The translations under genes were made by a program, and so were the position numbers. Shown piece after piece: positions 2,317 through 12,829 of a DNA stretch of 64,000 nucleotides. The notes beneath the pieces are model-generated. The model saw only the letters and a list, made by a program, of their open reading frames with translations, made no database searches and was not told the DNA's origin. The stretch is from Motilibacter peucedani (lineage in GTDB: Bacteria; Actinomycetota; Actinomycetes; Motilibacterales; Motilibacteraceae), in contig NZ_RBWV01000015.1 of the NCBI RefSeq assembly GCF_003634695.1, forward strand, positions 62,001-126,000. Reading direction: 5' to 3'. Each line of letters begins with the position of its first letter. Position 1 is the stretch's first letter.

Positions 2317-5229
2317 GTGCAGCGTCACCGAGCAAGGGGCGGGCACAGCCGCCGCGCCTGGAAGACCGTCCTAGCCGGAGGGCTCGCTGCGGCGACCCTG
2401 CTGGCGACCGCCCTGCCCGCCTCCGCGAGCCACTTCCGAGCCTCGGTCACCACGACGACCTTCGCCAACGGCGTCGTCACCTGGCACGTCGACGGCGCCT
2501 GGCGCAAGACGTCGAACGGGACGTTCTTCGGCGGCAACTCCGCGAACATGACGCTGACGCGAGTCAGCAACGGCACCACCGTGACCGGCCTCCCGCGGAC
2601 GCTGGTGACCGCGCCGCAGAACACCACCGACCCGCTGTTCGACCTGAGCAGCGAGACGCTCACGGTCGACATGACCAGCCTGCTCGGCTCGCCGGACACC
2701 TACCAGTTCTACCGGGCGTCCAGCGCCCGGGTGGCCGGCGTGCGCAACACGAGCGGCAACGACTCGTTCTCGCAGGCGATGGCGGTCACGGTGAACCCCG
2801 GCGGCACGGTGTCGTTGCCACCGCAGTTCGACCACGACAACCTCTACACGCTCATCCCCATCGCAGGGACGAGCGAGCTGTCGCTCGACTACCGGGCCAC
2901 GGACCCCGAGGGCACGGCGGTCACCTACCAGCAGTTGACGAGCCCCACCGGCCCGGACTTCGGCGCCACGGCACTGCCGTGCTCCTCGTTCACCGGCGGG
3001 GTGCTGCGCCTGTCCGCGGCCCTCTGCCCGGGCGGCACGACGTTCTCCTCCCAGTACTCCGCGGGCGACTTCTACGCGGTCAAGGTGAAGGCCACCGACG
3101 CCGACGGCCAGTTCTCCGAGACCGACACCCTGTTGAGAGTGCCCGTCATCCCGACGGCCACGCTGCCCGCGCCGACGTCGGTCACCTCCACCGCCCCGGG
3201 CACGATCGTGGTCCCGGTCGGGCTCGTCGACACCGACACCTCGGTCGACACGTACTCCGTGACCTGCACGAACACCGCGGACCCCGCCGACGTACGCACG
3301 GGCACGGGCACGACGCGCAACGTGCAGGTCTCCGGCCTCACCGACGGCGCCTCCTACAGCTGCGTCGCCACCGCGACGAACGGGCTGGGCGGGAACCCCT
3401 CTGCGTCGACCACCTACCGGACCCAGAGCGTCGCCTTCAGCCCCACCGCCGCCCTGCCGGCGACGGCTGCTCCGGTCACCCTCACCGCGACCGCGTCCTC
3501 GGGCCTGCCCGTCACCTACGCCAGCAGCACCCCGGCGGTCTGCACCGTCTCGGGAGCGACCCTCACCGTGGTGGCCCAGGGCACCTGCAGCCTGCTCGCC
3601 AGGCAGGCTGGCGACAGCACGTACGTCGCTGCCTCCACCGCGGCGACCGTGCTGGTCGCTGGCGCCCCCGCTCCCGCCGCCTCCTCGTCCACGGGGTCGG
3701 GCACGACCCCGCAGTCGGTGACGGTGCCGGTCGGCCCCGGCCAGTCGGTCACGCTGCTCGACGCGTCCGGCACCCCCACCACGACGGTCACCGTCCCCGG
3801 CCAGGGCACCTACGTCCTCGACCCGGCGACCGGAGCGGTGACGTTCACCCCCGTCCTGGGCTTCGCCGGCACGGCGACCCCCGTCACCGTCCGCGTCACC
3901 GATGCGTTCGGCCAGGCCGGCACGAGCACCTACACCCCGACGGTCACTGCGCCGCCCGCCCCGGCTCCGGCTCCGCGGACGAGCAGCGGGACCGGGACCG
4001 GCACCCAGACCGTCCGCGTCCCCGTCCCGGCCGGCGGCTCGGTCACGCTCCTCGACGCTGCGGGCGCTCCCGCCGCCACGGTGGTCGTGCCGGGTCAGGG
4101 CACCTACCTGCTCGACCCTGCGACGGGCACCGTGAGCTTCGTGCCGGTCGCCGGCTTCAGCGGGACCTCGACGCCGGTGGTGGTCCAGGTCACCGACGCC
4201 TACGGGCAGGTCGTGCGCACCACGTACGCCGCCACGGTGAGCTCGCCGACGCCCACGGCGGCGGCACCGGTCAGCTCGACCGGCGGGCCGGGTGCTGTCC
4301 AGTCGGCGATCGTGGCAATCCCGTCGGGCGGATCGGTGACGCTGCTCGACGCGCAGGGGCGGCCGAGCACCCGCGTGGTCGTGCCCGGGCAGGGCGTCTA
4401 CTCGCTCGACGTGACGACAGGCGTCATCACGTTCACGGCCGCGGCCGGCTTCACCGGTCGCGCGACGCCGGTCACCTTCCGCGTGACCGACGCCTACGCG
4501 CAGACCAGCAGCGCCACGTACGCCGCCTCCGTCGTCGGTGGGGTGACCAGCCCGACCGCCACGCTCACGGCCGTACGGGCCAGGGGTGCGCAGGTCGCCA
4601 CCTCGTCGGCGACGCGGGGCACGCTGCCGACGACCTGTCGCATCGACATCGGTCGGATCTCGCGGTGCACGGTGACGGCGTACGCGACGGTGAGCGGGCG
4701 ACGGGTCGTCGTCGGCACCGGCACCGGCGTGGTCGCCACGGGGGTGCAGACCCACGCCGTGCGGGCGACCGTGCAGCTCACGGCGGTCGGCCGGGCGCTC
4801 GCCGCGCGACCCGGCGGCGTGCCGCTCGCGCTGGTGGCTGCCGCGACGGCCAGGGGGCCGGGCTCGGCTGTCGTCGCGACGACCCGCGCGCGGGTGGTCG
4901 CCAACACGCTCGTGGCGCCGCGCCCGGTCTTCTTCGACACCTCGCGCGCGGTGCTCCGGCCCGGTGAGCGCAGCTACCTGGCGCAGCTGCGCAACGTCCT
5001 GATCGGCGTCCGGGTCATCCGGTGCGACGGGTTCACCGACTCACGGGGCGGAGCTGAGAACGCCACGCTGGCGCGGGCCCGGGCGAGCGCGACCTGCGCC
5101 TTCCTCGCTCGAGGCACCGCCATCCGCGCGGTGGTGGTCTCGCACGGCGAGACCAGCCCGGTGGGCGACAACGCGACCTCGCGCGGGCGCTCGCTCAACC
5201 GGCGCACCGACGTCCGGTTCGGCTACTAG
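2317..5229 (+). CDS. Large secreted protein with FN3-like, CshA-type repeat and OmpA-like domains
   Basis: A 970-residue exported protein. A signal peptide ends near residue 38 (ALPASAS). Residues about 280-370 resemble a fibronectin type III fold, and about 372-445 a bacterial Ig-like fold. Three repeats of about 77 residues follow (about 466-545, 565-642, 664-740), each with the CshA fibril-repeat pattern: VTLLDA, then PGQGTY, then a TFTP-like strand, GF.GTATPV and VTDA(Y/F)(G/A)Q. Residues about 885-970 look like an OmpA-type peptidoglycan-binding domain (DGFTDSRGG, then N..LARARA, ending SLNRRTDVRFGY). The likely role is a cell-wall-associated adhesin or spacer; this is inference. The GTG start has AAGGAG 5 bases upstream. 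The stop overlaps that of the convergent rarD. Confidence 0.8.
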   Translation: MQRHRARGGHSRRAWKTVLAGGLAAATLLATALPASASHFRASVTTTTFANGVVTWHVDGAWRKTSNGTFFGGNSANMTLTRVSNGTTVTGLPRTLVTAPQNTTDPLFDLSSETLTVDMTSLLGSPDTYQFYRASSARVAGVRNTSGNDSFSQAMAVTVNPGGTVSLPPQFDHDNLYTLIPIAGTSELSLDYRATDPEGTAVTYQQLTSPTGPDFGATALPCSSFTGGVLRLSAALCPGGTTFSSQYSAGDFYAVKVKATDADGQFSETDTLLRVPVIPTATLPAPTSVTSTAPGTIVVPVGLVDTDTSVDTYSVTCTNTADPADVRTGTGTTRNVQVSGLTDGASYSCVATATNGLGGNPSASTTYRTQSVAFSPTAALPATAAPVTLTATASSGLPVTYASSTPAVCTVSGATLTVVAQGTCSLLARQAGDSTYVAASTAATVLVAGAPAPAASSSTGSGTTPQSVTVPVGPGQSVTLLDASGTPTTTVTVPGQGTYVLDPATGAVTFTPVLGFAGTATPVTVRVTDAFGQAGTSTYTPTVTAPPAPAPAPRTSSGTGTGTQTVRVPVPAGGSVTLLDAAGAPAATVVVPGQGTYLLDPATGTVSFVPVAGFSGTSTPVVVQVTDAYGQVVRTTYAATVSSPTPTAAAPVSSTGGPGAVQSAIVAIPSGGSVTLLDAQGRPSTRVVVPGQGVYSLDVTTGVITFTAAAGFTGRATPVTFRVTDAYAQTSSATYAASVVGGVTSPTATLTAVRARGAQVATSSATRGTLPTTCRIDIGRISRCTVTAYATVSGRRVVVGTGTGVVATGVQTHAVRATVQLTAVGRALAARPGGVPLALVAAATARGPGSAVVATTRARVVANTLVAPRPVFFDTSRAVLRPGERSYLAQLRNVLIGVRVIRCDGFTDSRGGAENATLARARASATCAFLARGTAIRAVVVSHGETSPVGDNATSRGRSLNRRTDVRFGY
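3712..4533 (+). repeat. Three CshA-type coding repeats, period about 300 bases
   Basis: Repeats begin near 3712, 4009 and 4306, each about 230 bases. They are separated by Pro/Ala/Ser/Thr-rich linkers of about 60 bases. The encoded repeats share VTLLDA, VPGQGTY or VPGQGVY, and VTDAxxQ. This is an internal tandem duplication of one structural domain. Confidence 0.75.
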
Positions 5230-9297: not shown

Positions 9298-9342
9298 AGC
9301 GAGCGGGGCCGTCCGGCTTCCCGCCGGACGGCCCCGCTCGCT
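9298..9342 (-). terminator. Long perfect hairpin after the beta-helix gene
   Basis: A 19-bp perfect stem (AGCGAGCGGGGCCGTCCGG and its complement) with a 7-base loop. It lies just 3' of the minus-strand beta-helix gene and upstream of korA, so it separates the two transcription units. Confidence 0.8.
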
Positions 9343-9376: not shown

Positions 9377-11242
9377 TCAGATCTCGTTCTGGCAGGCGTT
9401 GTAGTGCTCGTCGAACAGCGAGGCCGAACCGCCGTCGGTGAACGTCGTCCCGGACACGGCGTTGTCCTCGCCCGAGCCGGGGATGGCCGTGCACTGGACG
9501 TCCCTGGGGTAGCTGAGCGGGAAGAGCACGTGGTGCACCTGCACCGCGTCCGCGATGCCGGCGCTGGTCCCCCGGTTGTCGGTCACGCTCCACCCCGAGC
9601 CCTTGAGGTCGATCCAGGAGTCGGCGGAGTTGGCCCCGCTGTAGCCGGAGTGCAGGAACGTGTTGCCGGTGATGACGCCTCCCGACGTCCCCTCCTTCAC
9701 GTCGACGCCCTCGGCGGTGGTGTCCTGGATCGTGTTGCCCTCGATCAGGTTGCCGTCGGAGCGGTCGGGCGTCATGTCGTCGCCGGTGCTGCGCTTCCAG
9801 TTCTTGACCGCGGAGCCGACGTAGACGCCCTCGCCGAAGCCCGGGCTCGACTTGCCCGTGTCGTGGATCCAGCTGTTCCGGAGCACGGAGCGGGTGGTGC
9901 CCTTGCGGAAGTGGACGCCCTCGTTGCCGATGTCGGTGACCTGGATCCCGTCGAGGACGGTGCCCACGGAGCCGTCGAGCAGCACGCCCTTCTGCGAGTG
10001 GGACAGCGTGATGCCCTTGACGACGACCCAGCTGCCGGTGATGTAGAGGCCGGTGCCGCTGCCGATGCCGCCGGAGCTCAGGACCGCGTCCCGCGGGCCC
10101 TGCAGGACGATCGGGTGGTCCGGCGTCCCGCTCGCGGAGATGACCAGGCGCGAGAGGTAGAGGCCGGGGGTGAGCGTCATGACGGTGCCGGGACGGGCGC
10201 CGACGGCGGCCTTGCGCAGCTCGGAGGTCGTGCCGGGGTCGAACGTCGGGCTCATCTGGTCGACCGTCCAGTCGGTCGTGTGGTCACGCCCGGGCTCGGG
10301 CTGCGAGCCCTGCGTGGGCGGGACGCTGAACCCGGGCTTCGGCGAGCTCCCCTTCGAGCCCGGAGCCGTGCTCCCCGGCACCGGCGTGCTGCCGGGGCCG
10401 GTGCCCGTGCCGCCGGGGCCGGTGCCCGTCGTGGGGCGCGGGCTCGGGTTCACGGTCGACCCGGGGGCCGGCAGGTTGTCGCCGGGGGTCGTGGTGCCTC
10501 CGGGCGCGGGGCGGCCGGCAGCTCGGGGGAGCGCGGCCCCGCCGGTCGGTGCGGGCTGGCGGGGGCAGTGCGCGAGGACCGCGGTGTATGTCTTCTTCTC
10601 GGCCGCGGTGGTCCAGAGGCCGTACTTCGCCTGCACCGCGATGCGCCGCGCGACGTAGCTGCAGCTCCTGGCCGTGGTGGCCGGCTTCCAGGTGGAGGCG
10701 TCGCGGTTGCCGCGGCGGGCGCTCGTCGCCTTGTCGACCGTCACGAGGTTGAGCGGGTCGTTGGCGAAGATGAGCCGCTTCTGCGCCGTCCAGGACCGGG
10801 CCCCGGTGCGCCACGCCTGCTGGGTGGTCACGACGCGGTCGACGGCGGTGTTCGCCGGGTGCGTGCGCGAGTAGCGGATCGTGCGCCCGGTGTAGAAGCT
10901 GTGGAACGACCCGCGCGCCACGACGCAGCGGCTGCGCGGCGCCAGGACCGCGGTGCGGCCGAGGTCGCGCCAGAGGATGTCGTTCTTGGTGTCGCAGGTG
11001 TCGTGGTTGATGTCGGCCCACGCCTTGCCGAACCGCGCTGCGGTGTAGCCGGTCACCGGCGCGTAGGCCTTGACCTTGACCTTCGCCAGCACCGTGCGGG
11101 CGGTGGGCGCGGCCGCCTGCGCCGGGCTGGAGACGGCGGGCACGCCGACCAGGCCTGCGAGCAGCAGCGCGGGGACGGCGGCGACGGCGGCGCGCGGGCG
11201 CAGCGCGACCCTCTCGCGGAGCCTCGACAGGTTGACGTGCAC
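9377..11242 (-). CDS. Secreted fusion: degenerate HNH (DUF1524) domain plus parallel beta-helix
   Basis: A 621-residue exported protein. The signal peptide ends near residue 43 (SSPAQA). Residues about 65-225 match the DUF1524/GmrSD C-terminal nuclease-like family: FGKAWADI, CDTKNDILWRDL, YTGRTIRYSR, FANDPLNLVTVD, ATWKP, AKYGLW. The family's catalytic IDHVV is VDRVV here (Arg136), so nuclease activity is doubtful. A Pro/Gly/Thr-rich linker (about 230-330) leads to a right-handed parallel beta-helix (about 345-600) with repeated short strands such as GVLLDGSVGTVLDGIQVTDI and NLIEGNTIQDT, the fold of polysaccharide lyases and NosD-like proteins. Substrate binding at the cell surface is inference. 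A GTG start was chosen for the signal peptide. Confidence 0.78.
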   Translation of the reverse strand: MHVNLSRLRERVALRPRAAVAAVPALLLAGLVGVPAVSSPAQAAAPTARTVLAKVKVKAYAPVTGYTAARFGKAWADINHDTCDTKNDILWRDLGRTAVLAPRSRCVVARGSFHSFYTGRTIRYSRTHPANTAVDRVVTTQQAWRTGARSWTAQKRLIFANDPLNLVTVDKATSARRGNRDASTWKPATTARSCSYVARRIAVQAKYGLWTTAAEKKTYTAVLAHCPRQPAPTGGAALPRAAGRPAPGGTTTPGDNLPAPGSTVNPSPRPTTGTGPGGTGTGPGSTPVPGSTAPGSKGSSPKPGFSVPPTQGSQPEPGRDHTTDWTVDQMSPTFDPGTTSELRKAAVGARPGTVMTLTPGLYLSRLVISASGTPDHPIVLQGPRDAVLSSGGIGSGTGLYITGSWVVVKGITLSHSQKGVLLDGSVGTVLDGIQVTDIGNEGVHFRKGTTRSVLRNSWIHDTGKSSPGFGEGVYVGSAVKNWKRSTGDDMTPDRSDGNLIEGNTIQDTTAEGVDVKEGTSGGVITGNTFLHSGYSGANSADSWIDLKGSGWSVTDNRGTSAGIADAVQVHHVLFPLSYPRDVQCTAIPGSGEDNAVSGTTFTDGGSASLFDEHYNACQNEI

Positions 11243-11412: not shown

Positions 11413-11874
11413 GTGCCAGACACCGCCGCACCCGCAGGCCAGCCCGGGACCCGCGTCCTCGACTGGGGCTCGCGCCTGCGGCTCCACGTCCTCGACGCGG
11501 GGCTCGCCTGCTGCGCGGTCGAGGTCTCGGCCGCGGCGGCCCGCCGGCAGGTCGACCACCCCGGTGCGGCACCCTTCGCGCACGACCCCGAGCGCGCCGA
11601 CGTGCTGCTCGTGAGCGGCACGGTCACCGACAAGCTGCTGCCCTCGGTCGTGGCCGCCTACGACGCGCTCCCCGGACGCCGCCTGGTGGTCGCCTTCGGC
11701 GCCTGCGTCGCCAGCGGGGGGCCCTACTGGGACTCCTACAGCGTCACCAAGGGCGTCGACCAGGTGCTGCCCGTCGACCTCTACGTGCCCGGCTGCCCGC
11801 CGCGGCCGGAGGCCCTGACCGAGGGCCTGGCCCGGCTCGAGCGCTCCCTCGCCGACGGCGCACCCCTCTCGTGA
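11413..11874 (+). CDS. NuoB-like [4Fe-4S] subunit (orphan complex I/hydrogenase small-subunit family)
   Basis: A 153-residue member of the NuoB / 20-kDa family. All four ligands of the N2-type [4Fe-4S] cluster are present: C33 and C34 (LACCAVE), C98 (FGACVASGG) and C128 ([11 protein letters not shown]). [21 protein letters not shown] is close to the family signature. It is the first gene of a three-gene operon with NuoC-like and NuoI-like partners, each overlapping the next by GTGA. No NuoA, D, E, F, G, H or J-N gene is nearby, so this is not a standard complex I locus. The GTG start has only a weak AGGG upstream. Confidence 0.85.
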
Positions 11875-12461
11875 GCGCCCCGTTCGAGACCGCGCAGGTC
11901 GAGCAGGCGCTCGCCGGGCTCGGTGCTGCGCTGCGCGGCACGGCGCGGACCCTGGCCACGCCGTCCGACCTGCCGCGCGCCGCGGTGGCGCCCGAGGCGT
12001 GGGCGGTCGCGCTCCGAGCGCTGCGCGACGGTCTCGGCACGACGTGGTTCGACTGGCTGACCGGCGTCGACGAGTCCGACCACCTCGAGGTGGTCGCCTG
12101 CCTGCTGGCGCCCTCCGGTCCCTCCGCGGGCCACGGCGTGCTCCTCACCACCGCCCTGGACCCCGGCGCGCCGGTCCTCGAGACCGCGGTGGGCGTCTTC
12201 CGCGGCGCGGCGTGGCACGAGCGGGAGGCGCACGAGATGTTCGGCATCGACTTCGCGGGCCACCCCCGCCTGCGTCCCCTGCTGCTGCCGCCGGGGTTCG
12301 AGGGCCACCCGCTGCGCAAGGACTTCGTGCTCGCCTCCCGCGTGGCGCGCCCGTGGCCCGGCGAGCACGAGCCGAGCGGCCGCACCCGGCGACGGGCGCT
12401 GCCGCCCGGCGTTCCCGAGCCGGGCACCTGGGGCGAGGACGCCGCGGAGCGTACGCGGTGA
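11871..12461 (+). CDS. NuoC-like 30-kDa subunit (orphan module)
   Basis: A 196-residue protein of the complex I 30-kDa / hydrogenase-3 EchD-like family. [17 protein letters not shown] is the first conserved block. [18 protein letters not shown] and [20 protein letters not shown] form the family signature that docks NuoC to the 49-kDa subunit. No NuoD gene is adjacent. The GTG start overlaps the upstream stop (GTGA). Confidence 0.85.
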
Positions 12462-12829
12462 GCGCCCTCCCGCCGCGCAGCCGCGGCGTCATCGCCCTGA
12501 GCGAGCCGAACTGCACCGTCTGCATGCTCTGCGTCCGCGAGTGCCCCGACTGGTGCATCACCATCGACTCGCACGTCGAGCGCGTGCCCGCCGAGGGTCC
12601 CGGCGGCCGGCCGCGCTCGGTGCACGTGCTCGACCGCTTCGACATCGACTACGGCCTCTGCATGTACTGCGGCATCTGCGTCGAGGTCTGCCCCTTCGAC
12701 GCGCTGTTCTGGGCGCCCGGCACCGACTACTCCGCGGCCGAGCCCGAGCAGCTGGTCCACGGCAAGGAGCGGCTCGGCGAGTGGCTCGCCGACGCGCCGT
12801 CCGCACCGCGCGACCAGGGGAACGACTAG
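12458..12829 (+). CDS. NuoI-like 2[4Fe-4S] ferredoxin (orphan module)
   Basis: A 123-residue ferredoxin-type protein with two classic cluster motifs, [12 protein letters not shown] and [12 protein letters not shown]. The second is typical of NuoI/hydrogenase 8Fe ferredoxins. The tail (about residues 85-123) is acidic. GTGA overlap with the NuoC-like gene indicates co-translation. It could pass electrons between the NuoB-like cluster and a soluble ferredoxin pool; korAB close by makes reduced ferredoxin, but the link is inference. Confidence 0.85.

Follow-up and report, generated by a model that had tools for sequence, protein, structure and literature searches.

A degenerate DUF1524 nuclease domain fused to a PL31-like beta-helix in Motilibacter peucedani: a candidate polyanion-binding module on a predicted uronate lyase

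The window analysed here is a 64,000-nucleotide stretch of the Motilibacter peucedani genome (contig NZ_RBWV01000015.1, positions 62,001 to 126,000), and the gene under study lies on its reverse strand (Table 1). The frame opens with GTG at 11240–11242, with GGGGGG seven bases upstream, and its product begins with a signal-peptide-like stretch and is probably secreted. An initial annotation described a DUF1524 domain joined through a Pro/Thr linker to a beta-helix, and profile searches of both halves agree with this architecture, each half exceeding its Pfam cut-off: GmrSD_C (PF07510) matches residues 85–220 with 33 bits against a cut-off of 23, and Beta_helix (PF13229) matches residues 395–475 with 35.7 bits against 25.9. 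A NosD match (PF05048; 25.3 bits against 23.6) overlaps that of Beta_helix. NosD identity was nevertheless set aside, as the NCBIfam NosD model scored 23 against a cut-off of 300 and the match to the PL31 alginate lyase PsAly, described below, is far better; the PF05048 match is read as reflecting shared beta-helix repeats. The inverted repeat beyond the stop codon would form a terminator-like hairpin with no evident T run (by eye). The analysis as a whole draws on sequence, one predicted model, and trees.

Table 1. Position of the gene and its parts within the window.
Feature	Position	Strand	Description or basis
Whole gene	9377..11242	-	621 aa; signal-peptide-like start, degenerate DUF1524, Pro/Thr/Gly linker, PL31-like beta-helix
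Signal-peptide-like N-terminus, residues 1-43	11114..11242	-	By eye
DUF1524 / GmrSD_C domain, residues 44-230, degenerate active site	10553..11113	-	Profile, alignment, model
Arg136 codon (CGC), replacing the general-base His	10835..10837	-	Site roles from available text of PMC4619093
Asp135 codon, remaining predicted metal-ligand position	10838..10840	-	Alignment
Ser174 codon (AGC), replacing the last Asn, a predicted metal ligand	10721..10723	-	Alignment
Pro/Thr/Gly-rich linker, residues 231-336	10235..10552	-	Sequence
PL31-like right-handed beta-helix, residues 337-621	9380..10234	-	Sequence and structure homology to PsAly
Tyr474 codon, equivalent to PsAly Tyr184 (proposed catalytic acid)	9821..9823	-	Alignment
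Lys516 codon, equivalent to PsAly Lys221 (proposed catalytic base)	9695..9697	-	Alignment
17-base inverted repeat with 7-base loop, 3' of the stop	9300..9340		By eye

Fusions of this kind are present in four of the five genomes of the family, these five being also all the genomes of the order that were examined: the window gene and L006 in the window genome (G000), L005 in G001, L019 in G002, and L020 in G003, with no match in the fifth, G004. The window genome holds three PF07510 genes, namely the window gene, a lone DUF1524 with an intact site (L001), and the second DUF1524–beta-helix fusion (L003/L006), which lies on a different contig. Four of the five fusions score above the PF07510 cut-off, L005 falling below it at 16.6 bits. 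The window gene, L005, L019, and L020 occupy a single genomic slot, flanked on one side by korAB-like genes and on the other by a nuoB/nuoC/ferredoxin group with an HtpX-like gene beyond it (the korAB and HtpX names were assigned by eye); L006 is found elsewhere. The nuoB-nuoC-nuoI-like trio beside the korAB-like genes (PF01058, PF00329, and Fer4; window positions 11416–12829, forward strand) appears by eye to be an orphan, and its slot is kept in G001–G003.

Outside the family, no match spanning both halves was obtained in these non-exhaustive searches from 178 sampled genomes of the class (E up to 1e-60, with up to seven candidates scored per genome), nor from an overlapping set of 79 genomes of the class (E up to 1e-3, with up to 16 candidates scored). 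None of 451 matching plasmid records or six matching phage records covers 80% of the fusion query, and viral contigs yielded no confirmed relative. The named loci are the best 80 of 543 confirmed matches from a scan of genome contigs, and in this set no PL31-like helix of at least 200 residues was found. Searches of open-licence papers returned nothing on DUF1524 joined to a beta-helix, on a nuclease domain–alginate lyase fusion with extracellular DNA, or on polysaccharide lyase family 31 in streptomyces; for DUF1524 together with nuclease and secretion, the paper returned is on a fungus. A further PF07510 gene of the same genus, L146 (G001, contig C3), is a frame of 547 aa that belongs to the long GmrSD type and carries the motif E-H.

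The active site of the GmrD domain was predicted as D113-H114-N169-N178 (PMC4619093). In the available text of that paper, the histidine is the proposed general base, as is H80 in Vvn; D113 and N178 are the proposed metal ligands, after E79 and N127 of Vvn; and N169 is assigned a structural role. Mutation showed H54, N68, and N77 to be critical in the HNH enzyme of G. metallireducens, and the Eco94GmrSD mutants D507A, H508A, and N522A are inactive; the Eco94GmrSD counterparts of N169 and N178 were, according to its authors, outside that study. The window protein presents D135, R136, N165, and S174 in place of D-H-N-N or E-H-N-N, where positions 165 and 174 are our own assignment to N169 and N178, based on the nine-residue spacing and invariance. 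On this alignment, two of the four D-H-N-N residues have been lost, namely the base and one of the predicted metal ligands. The motif around the first two positions is usually (I/V)DHVV. The replacement of the usual IDHVV by VDRVV, and with it the loss of the catalytic histidine, had been pointed out in the initial annotation and holds in all four positional orthologs, across two genera. The loss of the last asparagine goes beyond what was seen there, and the accompanying statement that most family landmarks are kept proved too generous: Lys177 has gone as well as Asn174, and the window protein has Tyr, Ala, and Gln at positions 60, 68, and 204, where 103, 110, and 110 of 110 lone domains have Arg, Arg, and Lys. 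The domain does keep the four cysteines, Asp135, Asn161, Trp144, and the Pro-rich linker of its DUF1524 relatives.

These losses coincide with the fusion. Across 115 DUF1524 frames, position 136 is His in 111 and Arg in four (the window gene, L005, L019, and L020, hereafter the D-R genes); position 174 is Asn in 110, Ser in the four D-R genes, and Val in L006; and position 177 is Lys in 110 and Arg in five, all of them beta-helix fusions. The frames that deviate at one or more of these positions are exactly the five fusions, and the 110 lone domains keep all three residues. The profile alignment from which these counts come has 116 rows for the 115 genes, L006 being present twice, and the patterns that fetched the named loci leave columns 136, 174, and 177 untouched. 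All four D-R genes use CGC for the Arg and AGC for the Ser, and because three orthologs in other genomes also have CGC, Arg136 is not a sequencing error. Arginine at this site is not common to all beta-helix fusions, a point the annotation had raised for checking: it occurs in four of the five, and L006, the paralog in the same genome, has E-H. L006 is thus literally a relative with His and the same architecture, which the annotation had named as a refutation; yet this domain has Val in place of the last Asn and is also basic. Shared by all five fusions are the loss of the last Asn, the change of Lys177 to Arg, and a high positive charge.

We infer from these residues that the fused GmrSD_C domain, a His-Me finger, can hardly cut DNA. 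That it is still a nuclease of rewired chemistry, with Arg136 or another residue standing in for the histidine and Ser174 taking the metal, is very improbable. Asp135 and Asn165 do remain, the four D-R genes agree in their CGC and AGC codons, and extra positive charge would help to grip DNA; against this, the G. metallireducens and Eco94GmrSD mutants cited above lose function, the His and the last Asn are kept in 110 of 110 lone frames, and even the E-H paralog L006 has Val at the Asn site.

The beta-helix half is PL31-like, which both upholds and narrows its earlier description as polysaccharide-lyase-like. A phmmer comparison of the window helix with PsAly (PDB 6KFN) gives an E of 2e-39 over residues 2–235 of the 285-aa query, and a profile of nine helices gives 6.3e-74. 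Foldseek on the predicted model ranks 6KFN first at 36% identity; in the VIA-align comparison, the PL6 lyase AlyGC (Z 15.8) is level with 6KFN (Z 14.9, 27% identity), and all matches on that list are to the helix, with nothing informative for the nuclease half. The PsAly site was worked out by mutation, and in the available text of PMC6796002, Lys221 is the proposed base and Tyr184 the proposed acid, with a first cation at Glu181/Glu216/Asp219 and a second at Tyr244/Asp246/Gln276. Fourteen PsAly positions were compared (leaving out Asp188, Lys191, and Tyr195), of which the window helix keeps 13, the exception being Tyr244, which is Ser539. The kept equivalents include Tyr474 and Lys516, together with Glu471, Glu511, and Asp514 of the first cation; the second-cation set reads Ser539/Asp541/Gln568, and its Tyr column varies among the 27 helices compared, lone ones included. 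By this comparison, the window lyase half looks intact as uronate lyase machinery, in which Lys516 would act as the base and Tyr474 as the acid, with Glu471, Glu511, and Asp514 holding the first cation.

The same 13 positions are intact in 24 of the 27 helices and in 21 of the 22 lone ones; they are broken in the fusions L005 and L020 and in the lone helix L015. The catalytic Tyr and more are lost in L005 and L020, two of the five fusions. The window protein would accordingly combine a live lyase half with a dead nuclease half, while in L005 and L020 both halves look dead. Despite this appearance, the L005 and L020 frames are open and stand in the conserved slot. L015 (G000, contig C11) lies in divergent orientation to L006 and has lost the equivalents of K128, H154, R156, and Y184, and it seems to be a dead lyase adjoining a fusion. 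Four family genomes each carry five or six PL31-like helix genes, fusions counted, and so harbour an expanded lyase-like family.

The predicted model of the window protein has a mean pLDDT of 60.4, with block means of 75–97 over residues 41–230 and poor values in the second, C-terminal half of the helix; the helix is better judged by homology to the solved structure than by the model. The model alignment, apart from the window row, consists of ordinary family members. For the nuclease half, where a beta-beta-alpha metal fold would be expected of an active GmrD-type enzyme, Foldseek returns weak matches to Vvn/endonuclease I (best E 0.066, probability 0.98), and among solved structures no convincing sequence match to this half was found at E up to 10. 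Vvn, or Vibrio endonuclease I, is catalytically competent and is not known to be fused to a lyase. It is the His-Me nuclease (1OUP, 2G7F) whose site guided the GmrD assignment in the available text of PMC4619093.

In a careful tree of the DUF1524 domains, the five fused domains fall on one side of a branch with support of 100/100. This tree contains 63 of the 115 rows, with five site columns masked and a midpoint root; its bootstrap is not fully settled, and FUS_G003 (L020) was flagged for its letter make-up. As the fusions group together, the catalytic losses may represent one or a few events and not five, and loss, charge, and fusion may likewise have coincided once and not five times. The fusion itself probably arose once, in this family. 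The branching order ((G002,G003),(WINDOW,(G001,L006))) implies a reversion to His in L006; a wrong join is as likely, because L005 and L006 are the longest fusion branches (end branches of 0.9 against a median of 0.29).

In the best helix tree, the five fusion helices are not one clade, with the lone L015 beside L006 and FUS_G001 floating on a branch longer than 2; a single clade of all five is nevertheless not rejected (p-AU 0.18). The helices of WINDOW, FUS_G002 (L019), and FUS_G003 (L020) group with support of 96/89, and the FUS_G003 branch is long (1.66). A domain swap was considered as a simple account of the L020 helix and was set aside: since this helix groups with those of L019 and the window protein, it has drifted and was not swapped.

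Selection on the two halves can be compared in a single genome pair, G002/G003; other pairs appear saturated, with GC3 near 0.99, and dN/dS is usable for this one alone. Here, the fused DUF halves (L019 and L020) are 87% identical with a dN/dS of 0.166, compared with 81% and 0.265 for the pair of intact, lone DUF1524 domains in these genomes. The fused helix halves share 46% identity with a dN/dS of 0.876, compared with 74%–89% and 0.14–0.41 for four lone helix pairs. In this pair, then, selection keeps the dead nuclease half and the lyase half drifts. A leftover domain acting as a spacer under relaxed selection, as the loss of two catalytic positions and the long DUF-tree end branches of L005 and L006 might indicate, is improbable: the dN/dS of the fused domain lies below that of the intact lone pair, its charge is kept, and Cys83, Cys106, Cys194, and Cys226, invariant in the fusions and in a 58-row alignment, stay invariant with the core Trp at pairwise identities of 47%–56% among the fusions (close pair excluded).

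The fused domains also stand apart in their charge. Over the 161–162 residues compared, net charge is +21 in L020, +19 in L019, +18 in the window protein, +15 in L006, and +13 in L005; the 110 lone domains average +0.6 (standard deviation 5.4, range -16 to +11), so that none reaches the lowest fusion, and five lone domains of the same family span -5 to +7. On 176 core columns with the site columns omitted, the fusions score +24, +21, +21, +17, and +14, while the lone domains go up to +14; L005, at +14, ties with the highest of these and the other four exceed it. The number of Lys residues ranges from 4 to 21 across the fusions, and as they differ in their use of Lys and Arg, the charge cannot be put down simply to G+C content. 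Of 57 basic columns, just 11 are common to all five; hence, the charge stays and the sites turn over. Positions 73, 96, 145, and 180 are among the gains that the fusions share, and all five have Ser at position 115, where 106 of 110 lone domains carry an acidic residue.

Near-invariant basic residues of the lone domains have been lost at the same time: Arg60 and Arg68 in all five fusions, Arg126 in four, and Lys204 in three. Old DNA contacts may therefore be changed or gone, and whatever the domain now binds is not necessarily DNA; the loss of Arg60 and Arg68 would weigh somewhat against DNA as the ligand. The initial annotation had suggested that the nuclease fold is reused, perhaps for binding DNA or wall polymer outside the cell. 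Binding remains the best reading and is supported by the positive charge; the polyanion may be alginate, DNA, or a teichoic acid.

The charge also bears on the proposal that the degenerate domain attaches to the wall or to a partner protein, or makes the lyase more stable, its charge being a by-product of the interface. That proposal would sit well with the finding that the dead half stays constrained although its lyase is broken (in L020 relative to L019, the identities of the two halves given above), which points to a function apart from the lyase, with the four invariant cysteines, which suggest a stable extracellular fold, and with the finding that N-terminal accessory domains are not unusual on such helices. 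It gives no reason to expect that the charge should exceed that of lone domains while the basic sites turn over, and we consider it rather unlikely, if less so than the spacer.

The same modules occur in other arrangements. In DUF1524-linker-Excalibur proteins, such as L014 from the same genus, an Excalibur calcium-binding domain follows a like linker where the window protein has its lyase-like helix, and similar tails are seen by eye in many named loci. Among lone PL31-like helices of the same genomes and class, the helix is homologous and the N-terminal module is Ig-like or none was found: a scan of ten such proteins gave Ig-like domains (Big_7 or BiPBP_C) above cut-off at the N-terminus of three and a weaker match in two, and DUF1524 in none. 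From this, the fusion looks as though two common types of protein had exchanged modules. Set against GmrSD_C/DUF1524 (PF07510) generally, the window protein is without the general-base His and the last Asn and bears its net charge of +18. PsAly is homologous over most of the helix; the window protein differs from it in having Ser for Tyr244 and a fused degenerate nuclease.

The interpretation that we favour, and to which we give an even chance, is that a pseudo-nuclease now serves a PL31-like lyase as a cationic module for binding polyanions. The nuclease fold would have been kept for its ability to sit on a polyanion, its chemistry having been lost. After fusion, the domain would have become strongly basic, with the charge tuned into a handle for the uronate lyase, making it a polyanion-binding accessory module akin to a carbohydrate-binding module. 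Tethered by the flexible linker, it may hold the lyase on an acidic matrix, for which uronate polymers, wall teichoic acid, and extracellular DNA are candidates. The handle cannot serve a lyase in L005 and L020, whose lyase sites are broken. More tentatively, and with the balance leaning against it, a His-Me finger nuclease may have become a new kind of polyanion-binding module, with its charge raised by about 17–18, which is kept where the enzyme is dead (as the dN/dS of L020 and the residues of L005 suggest), in which case the protein may, in some members of the family, serve purely for binding or as part of a matrix.

As a pseudoenzyme domain fusion, this would be a natural example, in compact form, of how an enzyme domain can turn into one for binding. 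The state before the change can be read from the 110 lone relatives, whose sites are intact and which include five from the same family; as common descent, the lost residues, and the electrostatic change are readable too, the conversion is testable with one truncated protein. The case suggests a new accessory domain for PL31-like lyases, and labels such as 'HNH endonuclease family protein' may mislead for these fusions. Elsewhere in the window, on the forward strand at 2317–5229, lies a gene whose product has three CshA adhesin repeats and, at its C-terminus, an OmpA-like stretch that scores below cut-off.
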